Of a stretch of 64,000 nucleotides of DNA, positions 35,679-40,605 are shown piece after piece; position 1 is the stretch's first letter; each line of letters begins with the position of its first letter. Source of the stretch: Streptomyces sp. HM190 (lineage in GTDB: Bacteria > Actinomycetota > Actinomycetes > Streptomycetales > Streptomycetaceae); NCBI RefSeq assembly GCF_009857135.1, contig NZ_CP047318.1:1736001-1800000 (forward strand). Direction: 5' to 3'. The position numbers and the translations under genes are program-made. A model generated the notes under the pieces. It saw only the letters and a program-made list of their open reading frames with translations. It made no database searches and was not told the DNA's origin.

Positions 35679-36098
35679 ATGACGACGGGTACATCACGGC
35701 GCACGGTGCTGGCGACCGGCGCGACGGGCGCGGCAGCGCTGTTCACGGGCTGCGGCGGGGGCGGTGACGGCGCGGACGGGACCTCGGCCTCGGAGGGCAC
35801 CCGCGGCGCGGGCGAGGCACTGGCCGCCACGGCCGACATCCCGGTCGGCGGCGGCAGGATCTTCAAGGACCGGAAGGTCGTCGTCACCCAGCCCCAGGAG
35901 GGCGAGTTCAAGGCGTTCTCGGCGGTCTGCACCCACCGCGCCTGCCTCGTGAGCGCGGTCGCGGACGGCACGATCAACTGCCCCTGTCACGGGAGCAGGT
36001 TCAGCATCACCGACGGCGCGGTGGAGCACGGCCCCGCCCAGGTGCCGCTGCCCGCCGAGCAGATCACCATCTCGGGAAACTCGATTCAACTGGGCTGA
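35679..36098 (+). CDS. Lipoprotein Rieske [2Fe-2S] protein with Tat-like signal
   Basis: This 139-residue exported iron-sulfur protein has twin-arginine SRRTVLATGA and a lipobox ending in Cys25 (LFTGC). Folded, metallated export and lipid anchoring outside the membrane are therefore expected. The Rieske ligands are CTHRAC and CPCHGS. A linker rich in Gly/Asp/Ser separates anchor and domain. Such stand-alone Rieske proteins probably carry electrons to an unknown partner. It is not next to a bc1 complex. It lies 21 nt upstream of the first RlaP-like gene on the same strand. Confidence 0.88.
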   Translation: MTTGTSRRTVLATGATGAAALFTGCGGGGDGADGTSASEGTRGAGEALAATADIPVGGGRIFKDRKVVVTQPQEGEFKAFSAVCTHRACLVSAVADGTINCPCHGSRFSITDGAVEHGPAQVPLPAEQITISGNSIQLG

Positions 36099-36119
36099 GC
36101 CCGCCCGTACGCTCCCGGC

Positions 36120-36881
36120 ATGGAGCCCTCGTACGCCCACGCCCTGGTCCGCGACCACACGATCTACGCCTGTGTGATGGGTTCGCGCGCCTTCGGACTC
36201 GCGACGGACGACAGCGACACGGACCTCCGGGGGGTGTTCCTGGCGCCGACCGCGCTGTTCTGGCGCTTCGAGAAGCCGCCGACGCATGTGGAGGGGCCGG
36301 CCGAGGAGCAGTTCGGCTGGGAGCTGGAGCGCTTTTGCGAGCTGGCCCTGCGCGCCAACCCGAACATCCTGGAGTGCCTGCACTCCCCCCTGGTGGAACG
36401 CCTCGACGACACGGGCCGCGAACTGCTGTCCCTGCGCGAGGCGTTCCTGTCGCGGCAGGCCCGTGAGACGTTCGCCCGCTACGCCCTCGGCCAGCGCAGG
36501 AAGCTGGAGGCGGACCTCCGCACGCGCGGCGCGCCCCGCTGGAAGCACGCCATGCATCTGCTGCGCCTGCTGATGAGCTGCCGCGACCTGCTGCGCACGG
36601 GGACGCTCACCGTCGACGTGGGCGAGCAGCGCGAGCCCCTGCTGGCGGTCAAGCGCGGCGAGGTGGCCTGGGACCGGGTCGAGTCGTGGATGGTCCGGCT
36701 GGCCGCCGAGACCGAGGAGGCGGCGGCCCGCTCCCCGCTGCCGGCGGAGCCGGACCGGGCCCGGGTCGAGGACTTCGTCGTCCGCACCCGGCGCGCGTCA
36801 GCCCTTCGGGCCGTCGAGGCGGACCCGGACCACGAAGTCGTGCAGGGCGTCGTACGCGGAGGGGGTCTCCGGCAGCGCTGA
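36120..36881 (+). CDS. RlaP-type (DNA polymerase beta superfamily) nucleotidyltransferase A
   Basis: This 253-residue predicted nucleotidyltransferase has the palm motif GSRAFGLATDDSDTDLRGVF, where GS and the D-x-D pair would bind NTP and metal. A helical C-terminal half includes RWKHAMHLLRLLMSCRDLLRTG. The pattern fits the RlaP/YcgL family (Pfam PF10127 from memory), linked to RNA repair by comparative genomics. The family domain appears to end near DFVVRTRR (about residue 225). The remaining 28 residues read into antisense of the converging paralogue (84-nt overlap), suggesting a lost stop codon. Confidence 0.8.
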   Translation: MEPSYAHALVRDHTIYACVMGSRAFGLATDDSDTDLRGVFLAPTALFWRFEKPPTHVEGPAEEQFGWELERFCELALRANPNILECLHSPLVERLDDTGRELLSLREAFLSRQARETFARYALGQRRKLEADLRTRGAPRWKHAMHLLRLLMSCRDLLRTGTLTVDVGEQREPLLAVKRGEVAWDRVESWMVRLAAETEEAAARSPLPAEPDRARVEDFVVRTRRASALRAVEADPDHEVVQGVVRGGGLRQR

Positions 36882-37598
36882 CAGGGCCTGCTCCTCGTCG
36901 AGCGTCCTGTGCAGCCGCTCCACGTCCCGCGCCACGCGGTCCTGGTCGACGGCGGCCCTGCCGTGCTCGCGCTCCGCCTTCGCGGCGACGAGGTCCGGCA
37001 GATACGCGGGGGCCTCCTCGACCAGCGGCAGCAGGCTGGGCAGATGGGCCCGCACCTCGCCGGCGCGCATGAGGTGGATACCGGTGAGCAGCACCCGGAA
37101 CGTGTAGAGCAGCGGCTTGAGTTCACCGGTCTTCTCGAACAGCCGCCACTGGGTGATCGCGAAGCCGCGGTAGTGGTGGGCGTGGTGCCGGGTGAGGACG
37201 CCCGGCGCGAGGGAGACCAGTTCGCGGTGCGCATCGCCGGTGCGCACGACGAGCGGGGAGAGCACCTGCTCCAGCACGTAGCCGTTGCGGCGCAGCATCA
37301 GCCGTACGAACTTGCGCAGGTCGTGGGTGACGAGGTCCATCTCGACGCCGTCCCTGACCCACATCCTCGACCGGGTCTCCTCCGGCTCCCGCGGCCCCAC
37401 CAGGTCGGCCGCGGGCAGCAGGTGCACCCCGCGCAGGTCGACGTCGGAGTCGCGGGAGGGGAAGCCGTACAGGTGGGCTCCGGAGACGGTGGCGAACAGC
37501 AGGGGGCCGGGCTGTTCGGCGTCCTCCAGGCTCTCCACCAGGTTCGCGCAGGAGGCGCCCTTGTCCGGGGCCAGGGCGATGTCGAGGGCGTCGGTCAT
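36798..37598 (-). CDS. RlaP-type nucleotidyltransferase B
   Basis: This 266-residue paralogue of the converging nucleotidyltransferase has the palm motif SGAHLYGFPSRDSDVDLRGV with both Asp ligands kept. The C-terminal helices include RVLLTGIHLMRAGEVR and end DALHDFVVRVRL. The start is 3 nt after the ADP-ribosylglycohydrolase stop, so it belongs to the nrtR-like/hydrolase operon. It probably transfers a nucleotide to RNA or protein, but the substrate is unknown. Two diverged copies facing each other suggest duplication with inversion. Confidence 0.8.
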   Translation of the reverse strand: MTDALDIALAPDKGASCANLVESLEDAEQPGPLLFATVSGAHLYGFPSRDSDVDLRGVHLLPAADLVGPREPEETRSRMWVRDGVEMDLVTHDLRKFVRLMLRRNGYVLEQVLSPLVVRTGDAHRELVSLAPGVLTRHHAHHYRGFAITQWRLFEKTGELKPLLYTFRVLLTGIHLMRAGEVRAHLPSLLPLVEEAPAYLPDLVAAKAEREHGRAAVDQDRVARDVERLHRTLDEEQALSALPETPSAYDALHDFVVRVRLDGPKG

Positions 37599-37601
37599 CC
37601 C

Positions 37602-38624
37602 TCAAGCGTCCCAGAGGGCCCCCAGCGACACGAGGTCGCCCTGGTACTCGATCCGGTCGGCCCACTCGACGGGCCAGGCGGCCGGGCCGTGGTGGGCGCC
37701 CGCGAAGGCCCCGGTGAGGCAGGCGATGGAGTCCGAGTCGCCGGCGGTGCAGGCGGCGCGGCGCAGCGCGGTGACGGGTTCGTCGACGAAGAGGAGGAAG
37801 CACAGCAGACCGGTGGCGAGGGCCTCCTCGGCGATCCAGCCCTCCCCCGTGGCGAGGCAGGGGTCGGTCTCGGGCGACGGGTCGCGCAGGGCCTGCCGGA
37901 CGCGGTCCAGGGCGTCGAGGCACTCGTCCCAGCCGCGGGCGATGTAGTGCTCGGGCGAGGGGTCCTGGCCGTAGGTCCACAGGTCGCCGAGCCAGCGCGC
38001 GTGGTAGCGGGAGCGGTTCTCGTAGGCGTACGAGCGGAGCCGGCCGACCAGGCCGAGCGGTTCCGCGCCCTGGGCGAGCAGCCGTATCGCGTGTGCGGTG
38101 AGGTCGGCGGCGGCGAGCGCCGTGGGGTGGCCGTGGGTGAGCGCGGCCTGCAACTGGGCGGCGCCCGCGCGCTGTTCGTCGCTGAGCGGGCCGATGAGGC
38201 CGAGCGGCGCGACCCGCATGTTGGCGCCGCACCCCTTGGAGTGGAGCTGGCTCGCGAGCTGCCAGGGGTGACGCTCCCGCGCGAGGAGGTCGCAGGCGAC
38301 CAGGCAGGTGTGGCCGGGGGCGCGGTTGTTCTCCGGGGAGCGGGACCACTCGACGAACTCCTTGCGGACGGACCGCTCCAGCGCCTCGGGGCCGAGCACT
38401 CCGCGGTCCATGGCCGCCCGCAGTCCGTGGGCCAGCGCCAGCGTCATCTGGGTGTCGTCGGTGACGATCGCCGGCTTCGGCAGCTCCATCTGGCGCCAGG
38501 GGCCGCACTTGGCGAGGATCGACGGTACGTCGTTGAACTCCGTGGGGAAGCCGAGCGCGTCCCCGAGGGCGAGGCCGAGCAGGCATCCGGTGGCGGCGCG
38601 CTTGTCGAGCAGCGTCATGGCCAT
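37602..38624 (-). CDS. ADP-ribosylglycohydrolase (DraG-type)
   Basis: This 340-residue all-helical hydrolase removes ADP-ribose from proteins, nucleic acids or small molecules. The binuclear magnesium site is visible as GLALGDALGFPTEF, VTDDTQMTLALAHG and GDSDSIACLTGAFAGA. Length is normal. Its ATG overlaps the stop of the NUDIX regulator gene (TGATG), and the RlaP-B gene follows after 3 nt, so the three form one translational unit. With an NrtR-type ADP-ribose sensor upstream, the operon probably responds to and processes ADP-ribosyl products. Confidence 0.9.
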   Translation of the reverse strand: MAMTLLDKRAATGCLLGLALGDALGFPTEFNDVPSILAKCGPWRQMELPKPAIVTDDTQMTLALAHGLRAAMDRGVLGPEALERSVRKEFVEWSRSPENNRAPGHTCLVACDLLARERHPWQLASQLHSKGCGANMRVAPLGLIGPLSDEQRAGAAQLQAALTHGHPTALAAADLTAHAIRLLAQGAEPLGLVGRLRSYAYENRSRYHARWLGDLWTYGQDPSPEHYIARGWDECLDALDRVRQALRDPSPETDPCLATGEGWIAEEALATGLLCFLLFVDEPVTALRRAACTAGDSDSIACLTGAFAGAHHGPAAWPVEWADRIEYQGDLVSLGALWDA

Positions 38625-39349
38625 CAGGGCCGTCCTTCCGTGGTGGGTCGCAGCAGGGGCGGGTGCAGGGCGGTGGCCCCACCCGCCCGGTACAGCGCGG
38701 CGGGCTTGCCGCGGCCGCCGGTCAGGCGGGCGGCGCCGGGCACCTGTTCGACGAAGCCCGGCGTGGCGAGCACCTTGCGCCGGAAGTTGGGCCGGTCGAG
38801 CGGAGTGCCCCACACGGTCTCGTAGACCTGCTGCAACTCGCCGAGCGTGAACTCGGGGGGACAGAAGGCGGTGGCGAGACAGGTGTACTCGAGCTTGGCA
38901 CCGACGCGTTCGTGGGCGTCGGCGAGGATGCGGTCGTGATCGAAGGCGAGCGGTCCGACGGCGTCGAAGCGCAGCCACTGGGCCTGGGCGGCGTCGCCGC
39001 CGCCGTGCGGGGCGGGCGGATCCGGGAGCAGGGCGGCGAACGCGACGGTGACGACCCGCATCCGGGGGTCCCTGCCGGGTTCGCTGTAGGTCCGCAACTG
39101 CTCCAGGTGGAGCCCGGAGCCGTCCGTGACGCCGGTCTCCTCCGCGAGCTCCCGCCAGGCGGCCTGCTCGGCGGACTCCTCCGGCAGCACGAACCCGCCG
39201 GGCAGCGCCCAGCGCCCGGCGTAGGGCTCCTGGCCGCGCTCGACGAGCAGGACCTGAAGGGTGCCCGCGCGGAGGGTGAAGACGGCGAGGTCGACGGTGA
39301 CGGCGAAGGGCTCGAAGGCGTATTTGTCGTAACCCTCGGGTGAGGTCAT
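38624..39349 (-). CDS. NrtR-type NUDIX transcriptional regulator
   Basis: This 241-residue protein has an N-terminal NUDIX domain and a C-terminal winged helix (EFTLGELQQVYETVWGTPLDRPNFRRKVLATPGFVEQ). The NUDIX box is GGFVLPEESAEQAAWRELAEETGV. This is the NrtR layout, where ADP-ribose binding at the NUDIX fold relieves repression of NAD-related genes. The box keeps most catalytic Glu, so residual hydrolysis cannot be excluded. Start ATG at 39349 was chosen because palindromes lie across the alternative GTG at 39373. It is the first gene of the ADP-ribosylglycohydrolase/RlaP-B operon. Confidence 0.85.
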   Translation of the reverse strand: MTSPEGYDKYAFEPFAVTVDLAVFTLRAGTLQVLLVERGQEPYAGRWALPGGFVLPEESAEQAAWRELAEETGVTDGSGLHLEQLRTYSEPGRDPRMRVVTVAFAALLPDPPAPHGGGDAAQAQWLRFDAVGPLAFDHDRILADAHERVGAKLEYTCLATAFCPPEFTLGELQQVYETVWGTPLDRPNFRRKVLATPGFVEQVPGAARLTGGRGKPAALYRAGGATALHPPLLRPTTEGRP

Positions 39350-39367
39350 TCCCGTCGCCCCCTTTAT

Positions 39368-39400
39368 GGTCACTCTGACTAATAGTCATCCCGACTATAA
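39368..39400. promoter_or_regulatory. Candidate NrtR operator palindromes
   Basis: Overlapping inverted repeats are seen: GGTC-ACTCT-GACTA (39368-39381), GACTA-A-TAGTC (39377-39387) and TAGTC-ATCCC-GACTA (39383-39397). They lie 20-50 nt upstream of the NrtR-type gene. Autoregulation through these sites is inferred. Confidence 0.6.
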
Positions 39401-39471
39401 ATGCGCGTCGGTGGGGGGCGCAACCCTTTTCCGGGGAGAGGAACGCCAGGACCGGGAGCGGAAACGGCAAC

Positions 39472-39506
39472 GGGCCGCCCCCGGGAACGAGACCCGGGAC
39501 CGGCCC
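39472..39506 (-). terminator. Hairpin downstream of rluB
   Basis: Imperfect stem (GGGCCG.CCCGGG with CCCGGG.CGGCCC) begins about 25 nt after the rluB stop codon. It is the likely terminator of the parA-to-rluB transcription unit. Confidence 0.5.
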
Positions 39507-39531
39507 ACTGCTGCCGAACAGGGAAGGAGAC

Positions 39532-40605
39532 CTAGAGGTCGACCTCCGCCATCAGCATCCCGACCTCGGTGTTCGACAGTCGGCGCAGCCAGCCCGACTT
39601 CTGGTCGCCGAGGGTGATCGGCCCGAAGGCGGTGCGGACGAGCTTGTCGACGGGGAAGCCGGCCTCGGCCAGCATCCGGCGCACGATGTGCTTGCGTCCC
39701 TCGTGGAGGGTGACCTCGACGAGGTAGTTCTTGCCGGTCTGCTCGACGACCCGGAAGTGGTCCGCGCGCGCGTACCCGTCCTCCAGCTGGATGCCGTCCT
39801 TCAGCCGCTTGCCCAGGTCCCGCGGGATCGGGCCGACGATGTGCGCGACGTAGGTCTTCTTCACGCCGTACTTGGGGTGGGTCAGCCGGTGCGCCAGTTC
39901 GCCGTGGTTGGTGAGCAGGATGACACCCTCGGTCTCGGTGTCCAGGCGGCCCACGTGGAACAGCCGGGTCTCGCGGTTGGTGACGTAGTCACCGAGGCAC
40001 TGCCGGCCCTCCGGGTCCTCCATGGTCGACACGACACCGGCGGGCTTGTTGAGGGAGAAGAACTGGTACGACTGCGTCGCCACGGTCAGGCCGTCGACCT
40101 TGACCTCGTCCTTCTCCGGGTCGACCCGCCGGCCCTGCTCGGTGACGATCTCGCCGTTGACCTCGACGCGGGCCTGCTCGATCAGCTCCTCGCAGGCGCG
40201 CCGGGAGCCGTAGCCCGCGCGGGCGAGCACCTTCTGCAGCCGCTCACCCTCCTGCTCGGCGCCGGGGAAGGTCTTGGGCAGCTTGATGTCCTTCTTGCCC
40301 GCGTACCGCTCCCGGTTGCGCTCCTCGGCGCGCGCGTCGTACTCGCGCGAGGTCGCCGGGGCCGAACGGCCTCGCCCGCGGGGCTGCTGCGCCTGCTTGG
40401 GGCCGCCCTTGGCGCCGCCGCGCGCGGAGGCGCCCCGCCCGGACTTCGGACCGTCCTGCGTCCCGCCGGGGCCCACGTCGTAGCGGCGCTCCTCGGGGCG
40501 GGGCTTGCGGGGACGGCCCTGGCCGCCCTGCTTCTGGTCCCTGTTGTTGCCGGCACCGCGGTGGTTACCGCGCCCGCCGCTCTTGCCGCTACCGCTGCTT
40601 CGCAT
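39532..40605 (-). CDS. rluB: 23S rRNA pseudouridine synthase (RluB-type)
   Basis: This 357-residue synthase has a basic, Gly/Arg/Lys-rich disordered N-terminus of about 110 residues. An S4 RNA-binding domain follows (RLQKVLARAGYGSRRACEELI), then the RsuA/RluB catalytic domain with GRLDTETEGVILLTNHG (catalytic Asp) and HEGRKHIVRRM. It probably modifies helix 89-region uridine of 23S rRNA. It ends the parA-RHH-scpA-scpB-rluB run, an order conserved in actinobacteria. ATG at 40605 follows GGAAC. Confidence 0.92.
   Translation of the reverse strand: MRSSGSGKSGGRGNHRGAGNNRDQKQGGQGRPRKPRPEERRYDVGPGGTQDGPKSGRGASARGGAKGGPKQAQQPRGRGRSAPATSREYDARAEERNRERYAGKKDIKLPKTFPGAEQEGERLQKVLARAGYGSRRACEELIEQARVEVNGEIVTEQGRRVDPEKDEVKVDGLTVATQSYQFFSLNKPAGVVSTMEDPEGRQCLGDYVTNRETRLFHVGRLDTETEGVILLTNHGELAHRLTHPKYGVKKTYVAHIVGPIPRDLGKRLKDGIQLEDGYARADHFRVVEQTGKNYLVEVTLHEGRKHIVRRMLAEAGFPVDKLVRTAFGPITLGDQKSGWLRRLSNTEVGMLMAEVDL

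Follow-up and report, generated by a model that had tools for sequence, protein, structure and literature searches.

A Streptomyces locus that may unite an NrtR-switched ADP-ribosylglycohydrolase gene with a separate pair of RlaP-type nucleotidyltransferase genes

The window analyzed here, a stretch of 64,000 nucleotides (nt), covers positions 1,736,001 to 1,800,000 (1.736 to 1.800 Mb) of the single 7.76-Mb contig of Streptomyces sp. HM190 (G000). In it, aroH and rluB flank a Rieske gene and rlaA on the plus strand and rlaB, draG, and nrtR on the minus strand. Our subject is the predicted regulator gene nrtR, the ADP-ribosylglycohydrolase gene draG, and the two genes for RlaP-family nucleotidyltransferases of types A and B, rlaA and rlaB. 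An earlier note on this DNA described the three minus-strand genes as joined by a 1-nt overlap and a 3-nt gap, with a diverged RlaP copy facing them, and the coordinates agree. The genes nrtR (38624..39349) and draG (37602..38624; 340 amino acids) overlap by 1 nt at the junction TGATG, and 3 nt separate the end of draG from rlaB (36798..37598). On the other strand, rlaA (36120..36881) converges tail to tail with rlaB and overlaps its 3′ end by 84 nt. The start of nrtR was taken as ATG; an alternative GTG at 39373 would fall inside a palindrome described below.

The family assignments of that note hold, as do the sequence motifs that it pointed out in both nucleotidyltransferases and in the hydrolase. 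The nrtR product combines a NUDIX domain (PF00293, 75 bits) with an NrtR winged helix (PF21906 NrtR_WHD, 60 bits), both above the Pfam curated cut-offs, and Rodionov 2008 is said to deal with regulators of this kind. Its closest solved structures are AraR (5bs6) and an NrtR-like protein (3gz5). As aligned to the nrtR product, their Nudix boxes lack EE; since that of the locus NrtR is complete, this protein may hydrolyze ADP-ribose. The box is intact in 33 of 33 NrtR relatives, paralogues included. The draG product also exceeds its Pfam curated cut-off (PF03747 ADP_ribosyl_GH, 222 bits), has DraG (2woe) and ARH3 (2qty) as its closest relatives of solved structure, and carries the metal-site motifs TDDTQ and GDSDS, which are kept in the form [TS]DDT and GD[ST]D[ST] in 27 of 27 aligned rows (Thr in 21, Ser in 6). 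Both proteins stay below the NCBIfam equivalog cut-offs: 129 versus 400 bits for NrtR, and 62 versus 337 (DraG) and 59 versus 490 bits (Tri1) for the draG product. RlaA and RlaB belong to the RlaP family, which a NAR 2016 paper reportedly named, with 125 and 166 bits against PF10127 (curated cut-off 23). They are distant paralogues, 30% identical over 233 amino acids, and carry the type-specific motifs GSRAFGLxTxxSDxD (A) and SGAHLYGFPSxDSDVDLRG (B). In a tree, for which the program warns of long branches, the 22 B rows form one clade (support 100/99) and the 32 A rows a second (99/97); neither clade takes in six further RlaPs.

To follow these genes, nrtR, draG, and PF10127 members were searched for in G000 and 40 relatives (41 genomes, 25 of them Streptomyces), with gene order determined by tblastn; a draG search over 246 genomes scored eight first-look candidates per genome. 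draG is present in 23 of the 25 Streptomyces, every copy beside rluB. An nrtR of the G000 type is found in 16 of the 25 (G000 included), and in all 16 it adjoins draG. At the same site, A occurs in 20 of the 25 and an intact B in 12, never without A (12/12). G007 and G012 keep a remnant of B, and G022 one of A; in G018, which lacks draG, A and B lie apart from each other, and G008 has none of the four genes. The genes of the locus are lost separately, draG least often. In three Streptomyces, rlaB is fragmented or reduced (L052:9533-10102, L059:9200-9301, and L109:7223-7974) and draG and rlaA are still open. The A-type gene of G018 (L107:7041-8423), 58% identical to rlaA, stands apart from B, has a DUF4291 gene immediately after it, and groups in the tree with non-Streptomyces A genes. 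Between rluB and nrtR, two loci carry a sigma-factor-like gene and a major facilitator superfamily (MFS) transporter gene (L048:3047-6129 and L052:4712-7701); the MFS call comes from Pfam in L048, the sigma-factor call from sequence only.

Upstream of nrtR lies a perfect palindrome, ATAGTC-N5-GACTAT (here ATAGTC-ATCCC-GACTAT; 39382..39398), which is likely the NrtR operator. It is the sole perfect match in the genome, with one further place, at 54 kb, carrying one mismatch. A second, weaker palindrome with two mismatches (39366..39382) overlaps it by one base. That level equals the genome background: at up to two mismatches the reversed pattern gives 13 matches and the true pattern 10, so two-mismatch matches alone carry no meaning. 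In the exploratory set, 17 of the 18 fetched loci with nrtR have the palindrome at up to one mismatch in the ~150 nt that precede the lead gene, and 428 kb of other loci contain it nowhere at that level and twice at two mismatches. It is absent upstream of the G025 nrtR, which is 71% identical and does not adjoin draG. Because the pattern was derived from the exploratory sequences, we retested it on held-out loci, namely the named Streptomyces loci fetched afterwards. Nine of ten held-out loci with nrtR carry it at up to one mismatch within 80 nt, and none of 2000 random windows contains it at that level.

The held-out loci with draG but no nrtR have instead a changed form, ATTGTC or ACTGTC followed by N5-GACGAT (5/5), which also precedes draG in five of seven nrtR-less exploratory genomes. 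This form lies 0 to 2 mismatches from ATCGTC-N5-GACGAT, the type found before a second NrtR that is 55 to 62% identical to the locus nrtR and present in most Streptomyces searched. The ATCGTC pattern occurs in 8 of 2000 random windows at up to one mismatch and in 69 at up to two. The 11 draG loci of other families lack the changed form at up to one mismatch, and two show it at two. The second NrtR may possibly regulate draG where nrtR was lost, and if so, the locus would provide a natural example of a paralogue replacing a regulator. In G000, the second gene (L043:7617-8513, ~6.516 Mb) has its own palindrome, ATCGTC-N5-GACGAC, and is located near a gene that we take from its sequence to be hrdB. 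Neither palindrome form occurs at the five held-out Streptomyces loci with A and B only (0/5). The predicted operator tracks draG and nrtR rather than the RlaP pair.

A link to the metabolism of nicotinamide adenine dinucleotide (NAD) comes from species in which pnuC and nadR head the operon (G004, G005, G012, G015, G019, G181, and the named locus L169); they stand at the draG site in 5 of the 25 Streptomyces, with the palindrome placed before pnuC. Pfam supports both assignments (NMN_transporter, 199 bits, for PnuC of G005; AAA_28, 97 bits, and CTP_transf_like, 28 bits, for NadR of G004). A nadR of this type is found in 6 of the 25 Streptomyces, each time directly before an nrtR of the locus type, and for this reason we assign the regulator to NAD metabolism. 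In G024, an extra pnuC-nadR-nrtR operon lies elsewhere (L064:6748-9151) and does not include draG; a perfect palindrome precedes its pnuC reading frame by ~15 nt. G000 itself has no nadR and a single PnuC match, 29% identical, beside what is presumably a riboflavin synthase gene. Gene order and operators suggest that nrtR and draG likely belong together as one NAD-sensing switch.

The RlaP genes show a different distribution. We examined the best 80 of 562 confirmed B loci with named hosts, 59 outside Streptomyces (Microbispora, Nonomuraea, Streptosporangium, Actinomadura, Plantactinospora, Actinoplanes, and Kribbella among them) and 21 within it; a separate search for B homologues, of which the best 120 of 7997 rows were considered, gave Streptomyces for the named ones, so that diversity was taken from the former set. 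A was counted by position, since the A query also matches B. In 51 of the 59 non-Streptomyces loci, a distinct A is no more than 5 kb from B; in 46 of these 51 it directly precedes B on the same strand (distance to the B match up to 132 nt in 45 and up to 10 nt in 27; L167 by inspection). None of the 59 has draG, nrtR, nadR, or pnuC within 5 kb of B. Among the 21 Streptomyces loci, A is present in 21, draG in 15, nrtR in 10, and nadR-pnuC in 1. A- and B-type genes are also close together in eight genomes of one family (f19) in the class sample of 246 genomes, with varying flanks: LysRS, a methyltransferase, a solute-binding protein, cation efflux, an AMP-binding enzyme, a luciferase type, GNAT, and APH (two loci). 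Outside Streptomyces we found no general third partner of A and B, and the second-ranked flank cluster appears to include frames antisense to A. A search for viral copies of B gave one partial relative, 40% identical. RlaP A and B are therefore likely, judging from these neighborhoods, a unit separate from nrtR-draG.

Flank clustering also surfaced Hen1 (Hen1_L, 388 bits) and Pnkp (PNKP_ligase, 549 bits), encoded within 5 kb of A and B in 4 of the 59 non-Streptomyces loci, from three genera. Two Microtetraspora have a tight, same-strand hen1-pnkp-A-B arrangement. In Bailinhaonella, hen1-pnkp is on the strand of A and B, with ~0.85 kb from pnkp to A, and in Actinomadura sp. DC4 it lies downstream on the opposite strand. 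In G279, the distance to A is ~3 kb. A crude estimate, which assumes random placement and one hen1-pnkp per genome, puts the chance of 4 in 59 at P ~1e-6, or 7e-5 by three genera. In the 246 genomes, a Pnkp ligase occurs in 52 of 61 with an RlaP and 18 of 185 others (Fisher P = 2e-28, kinship ignored), and in 14 of the 15 sample genomes with A and an intact B. RtcB and KptA were rejected as repair partners; they do not discriminate, since 40 of the 41 genomes carry the former and 34 the latter, both unlinked in G000. The linked Pnkp and Hen1 are therefore the suggested partners, and the tie between RlaP and RNA repair drawn in the earlier note survives through them but not through RtcB or KptA. 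Its observation that the window lacks an RNA ligase or phosphotransferase is true for the RtcB, KptA, and Pnkp-ligase families, whose only matches in G000 lie outside it at ~5.06, 4.29, and 6.65 Mb; hen1-pnkp is ~4.9 Mb from the locus. Such repair genes stand near the RlaPs of some relatives (the 4 of 59 loci) and not at the G000 locus. A third RlaP type in G275 (L200:6184-11025) is divergent from an adjoining hen1-pnkp.

With moderate confidence, we favor a locus in which two units that arose separately have come together: an nrtR-draG operon probably switched by NrtR, and an RlaP pair that would act on broken RNA ends with Pnkp and Hen1. Gene order, families, conservation, and palindromes are observed, and from them we infer every biochemical step. 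When free ADP-ribose is low, NrtR bound to the palindrome would repress nrtR-draG-rlaB. Consumption of NAD by ADP-ribosylation or NAD cleavage would produce ADP-ribose, part of it freed by DraG as this enzyme strips modified molecules; NrtR would then be loosened and the operon turned on. Judging from its complete Nudix box, NrtR may also break down its own inducer and reset the switch, and in species whose operon is led by pnuC-nadR, the switch would replenish NAD from nicotinamide riboside as well. Both RlaPs would re-add nucleotides lost from cleaved RNA, which Pnkp would then seal and Hen1 mark. Because rlaB is last in the NrtR operon, it is probably co-expressed with draG in Streptomyces; rlaA, on the opposite strand, probably is not. 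A bolder version, in which Streptomyces wired RNA-end repair to an ADP-ribose sensor by placing rlaB on the NrtR operator, and in which the second NrtR took over draG (with or without rlaB) via a half-site change, seems to us rather doubtful. If it were true, RNA repair capacity would climb in step with ADP-ribose removal (and, in part of the species, with NAD refilling) whenever an attack burns NAD.

Several findings weigh against joining these two units in this way. rlaB is often lost or decayed in Streptomyces while draG persists. The operator is imperfectly kept: L187 has no good palindrome, L109 has two two-mismatch sites only, and G009 and G014 carry draG with neither form. In eight of the 59 non-Streptomyces loci A is missing from the 5 kb around B, two of these lying close to a contig end, and 55 have no hen1-pnkp at that distance. 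The association of RlaP with Pnkp ignores phylogeny, and within Streptomyces it is not decisive (Pnkp in 11 of 11 genomes with A versus 8 of 11 without). G199 has A and B but no Pnkp match.

The earlier note had proposed a single stress module. In such a module, ADP-ribose arising from RNA repair or from attack would lift repression by NrtR, and DraG would share a modified RNA or protein substrate with both RlaPs. The position of rlaB, 3 nt behind draG in an NrtR operon, speaks for such integration, as do the 20 of 23 draG-bearing Streptomyces that keep A at the site (12 with an intact B) and the RNA-repair links of RlaP relatives. The partnership of nrtR and draG has held up, but the four genes as one conserved module have not: outside Streptomyces, draG or nrtR is within 5 kb of the pair in none of the 59 loci. 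Within the genus, 3 of 23 genomes have draG without RlaPs, 5 of the 21 named loci have A and B at the site without draG and without the palindrome, and draG persists where B is lost. We consider a single module unlikely.

Alternatively, the RlaP pair may leave RNA alone and instead produce a nucleotide signal or modify a protein or a small molecule, its proximity to hen1-pnkp reflecting shared defense-rich regions. The models of B and A (predicted local distance difference test, pLDDT, 89.9 and 88.1) consist of a nucleotidyltransferase head and a helical tail. For B, the closest solved folds are those of aminoglycoside nucleotidyltransferases, followed by that of the oligodeoxyadenylate synthase HalB; those for A are AadA, HalB, and, weakly, an MNT antitoxin. 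The models are as close to small-molecule nucleotidyltransferases as they are to enzymes of RNA, a further point against action on RNA ends, but the template modeling (TM) scores are low (~0.4), as any Pol-beta-type domain may give. As modeled, the RlaP fold does not tell the substrate, and a sequence search for solved relatives of A and B gave none that was credible. Carboxylates are invariant in both types (D52, D54, and D88 in 57 rows of B; D33, D35, and E63 in 51 rows of A), the third catalytic one, D88 or E63, being predicted from the alignment. With hen1-pnkp beside the pair in three genera, and beside another RlaP type in G275, action away from RNA seems improbable to us.

Compared with known systems, the locus NrtR is like the NrtR regulators of NAD metabolism as described for MsNrtR (eLife 2019, PMC6800001): it has a Nudix domain and an NrtR winged helix, a palindrome before its own gene, and, in some species, an operon that includes the NAD genes pnuC-nadR. 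It differs in its palindrome, ATAGTC-N5-GACTAT versus the mycobacterial GTTTTCGA-N7-TCGAAAAC (PMC6800001), and, unlike in NrtR regulators, its main partner at the locus is draG. The RlaPs, too, are unlike their family in being kept as a pair of diverged types, which in Streptomyces adjoins nrtR-draG and has no RNA ligase in its vicinity; they are like it in passing the PF10127 cut-off and in having relatives beside hen1-pnkp.

Section 3.8 of PMC9503650 describes host systems centered on an ADP-ribosylglycohydrolase (ARG) with a Nudix or WYL regulator, part of which have phosphatase, chaperone, or nuclease partners, and proposes for them a role that would make the draG-centered locus a host counter to viral ADP-ribosylation. 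The ARG enzyme with an adjacent Nudix-helix-turn-helix repressor, the lack of an ADP-ribosyltransferase gene among the immediate neighbors scanned, and the patchy gene content would suit such a role. However, neither the four genes nor their neighbors aroH and the Rieske gene encode a phosphatase, peptide-binding chaperone, or nuclease, and that section names neither RlaP nor pnuC-nadR. Moreover, 23 of the 25 Streptomyces keep draG, always at one housekeeping site, unlike a fast-turning defense gene, and the pnuC-nadR link points to NAD metabolism, so we doubt that the locus is a viral countermeasure. A defense system recognized by PADLOC can be set aside, as the single weak match (PDC-S07, 26 bits) covers the NUDIX gene only.

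By family and numbering, SCO1766 and SCO1767 of S. coelicolor are presumably the orthologues of draG and nrtR. SCO1766 is listed as one of eight uncharacterized DraG homologues in that species (PMC9411070), and SCO1767, called a DNA hydrolase, is reported to be upregulated along with SOS genes under altered topA expression (log2 1.92 and 1.81; PMC6637917); PMC5087735 is a further source on these genes. The rise of SCO1767, one gene in one study, fits a damage-linked switch. A search of 39301-39700 in the window for an SOS box (GAAC-N4-GTTC type) found none. The predicted regulator, operator, and NAD-salvage link make the role of this draG homologue testable, and A and B beside hen1-pnkp offer a defined two-protein unit for testing the predicted RNA-end function of RlaP. 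Literature searches on RlaP/PF10127 and on NrtR with an ADP-ribosylglycohydrolase or NAD salvage found no title or abstract opening on the locus; the A and B pair and its hen1-pnkp link may be in print. Finally, the Rieske 2Fe-2S gene (35679..36098; assigned by Pfam), missing from the earlier account, lies directly before rlaA and is kept in most relatives at 50 to 78% identity.

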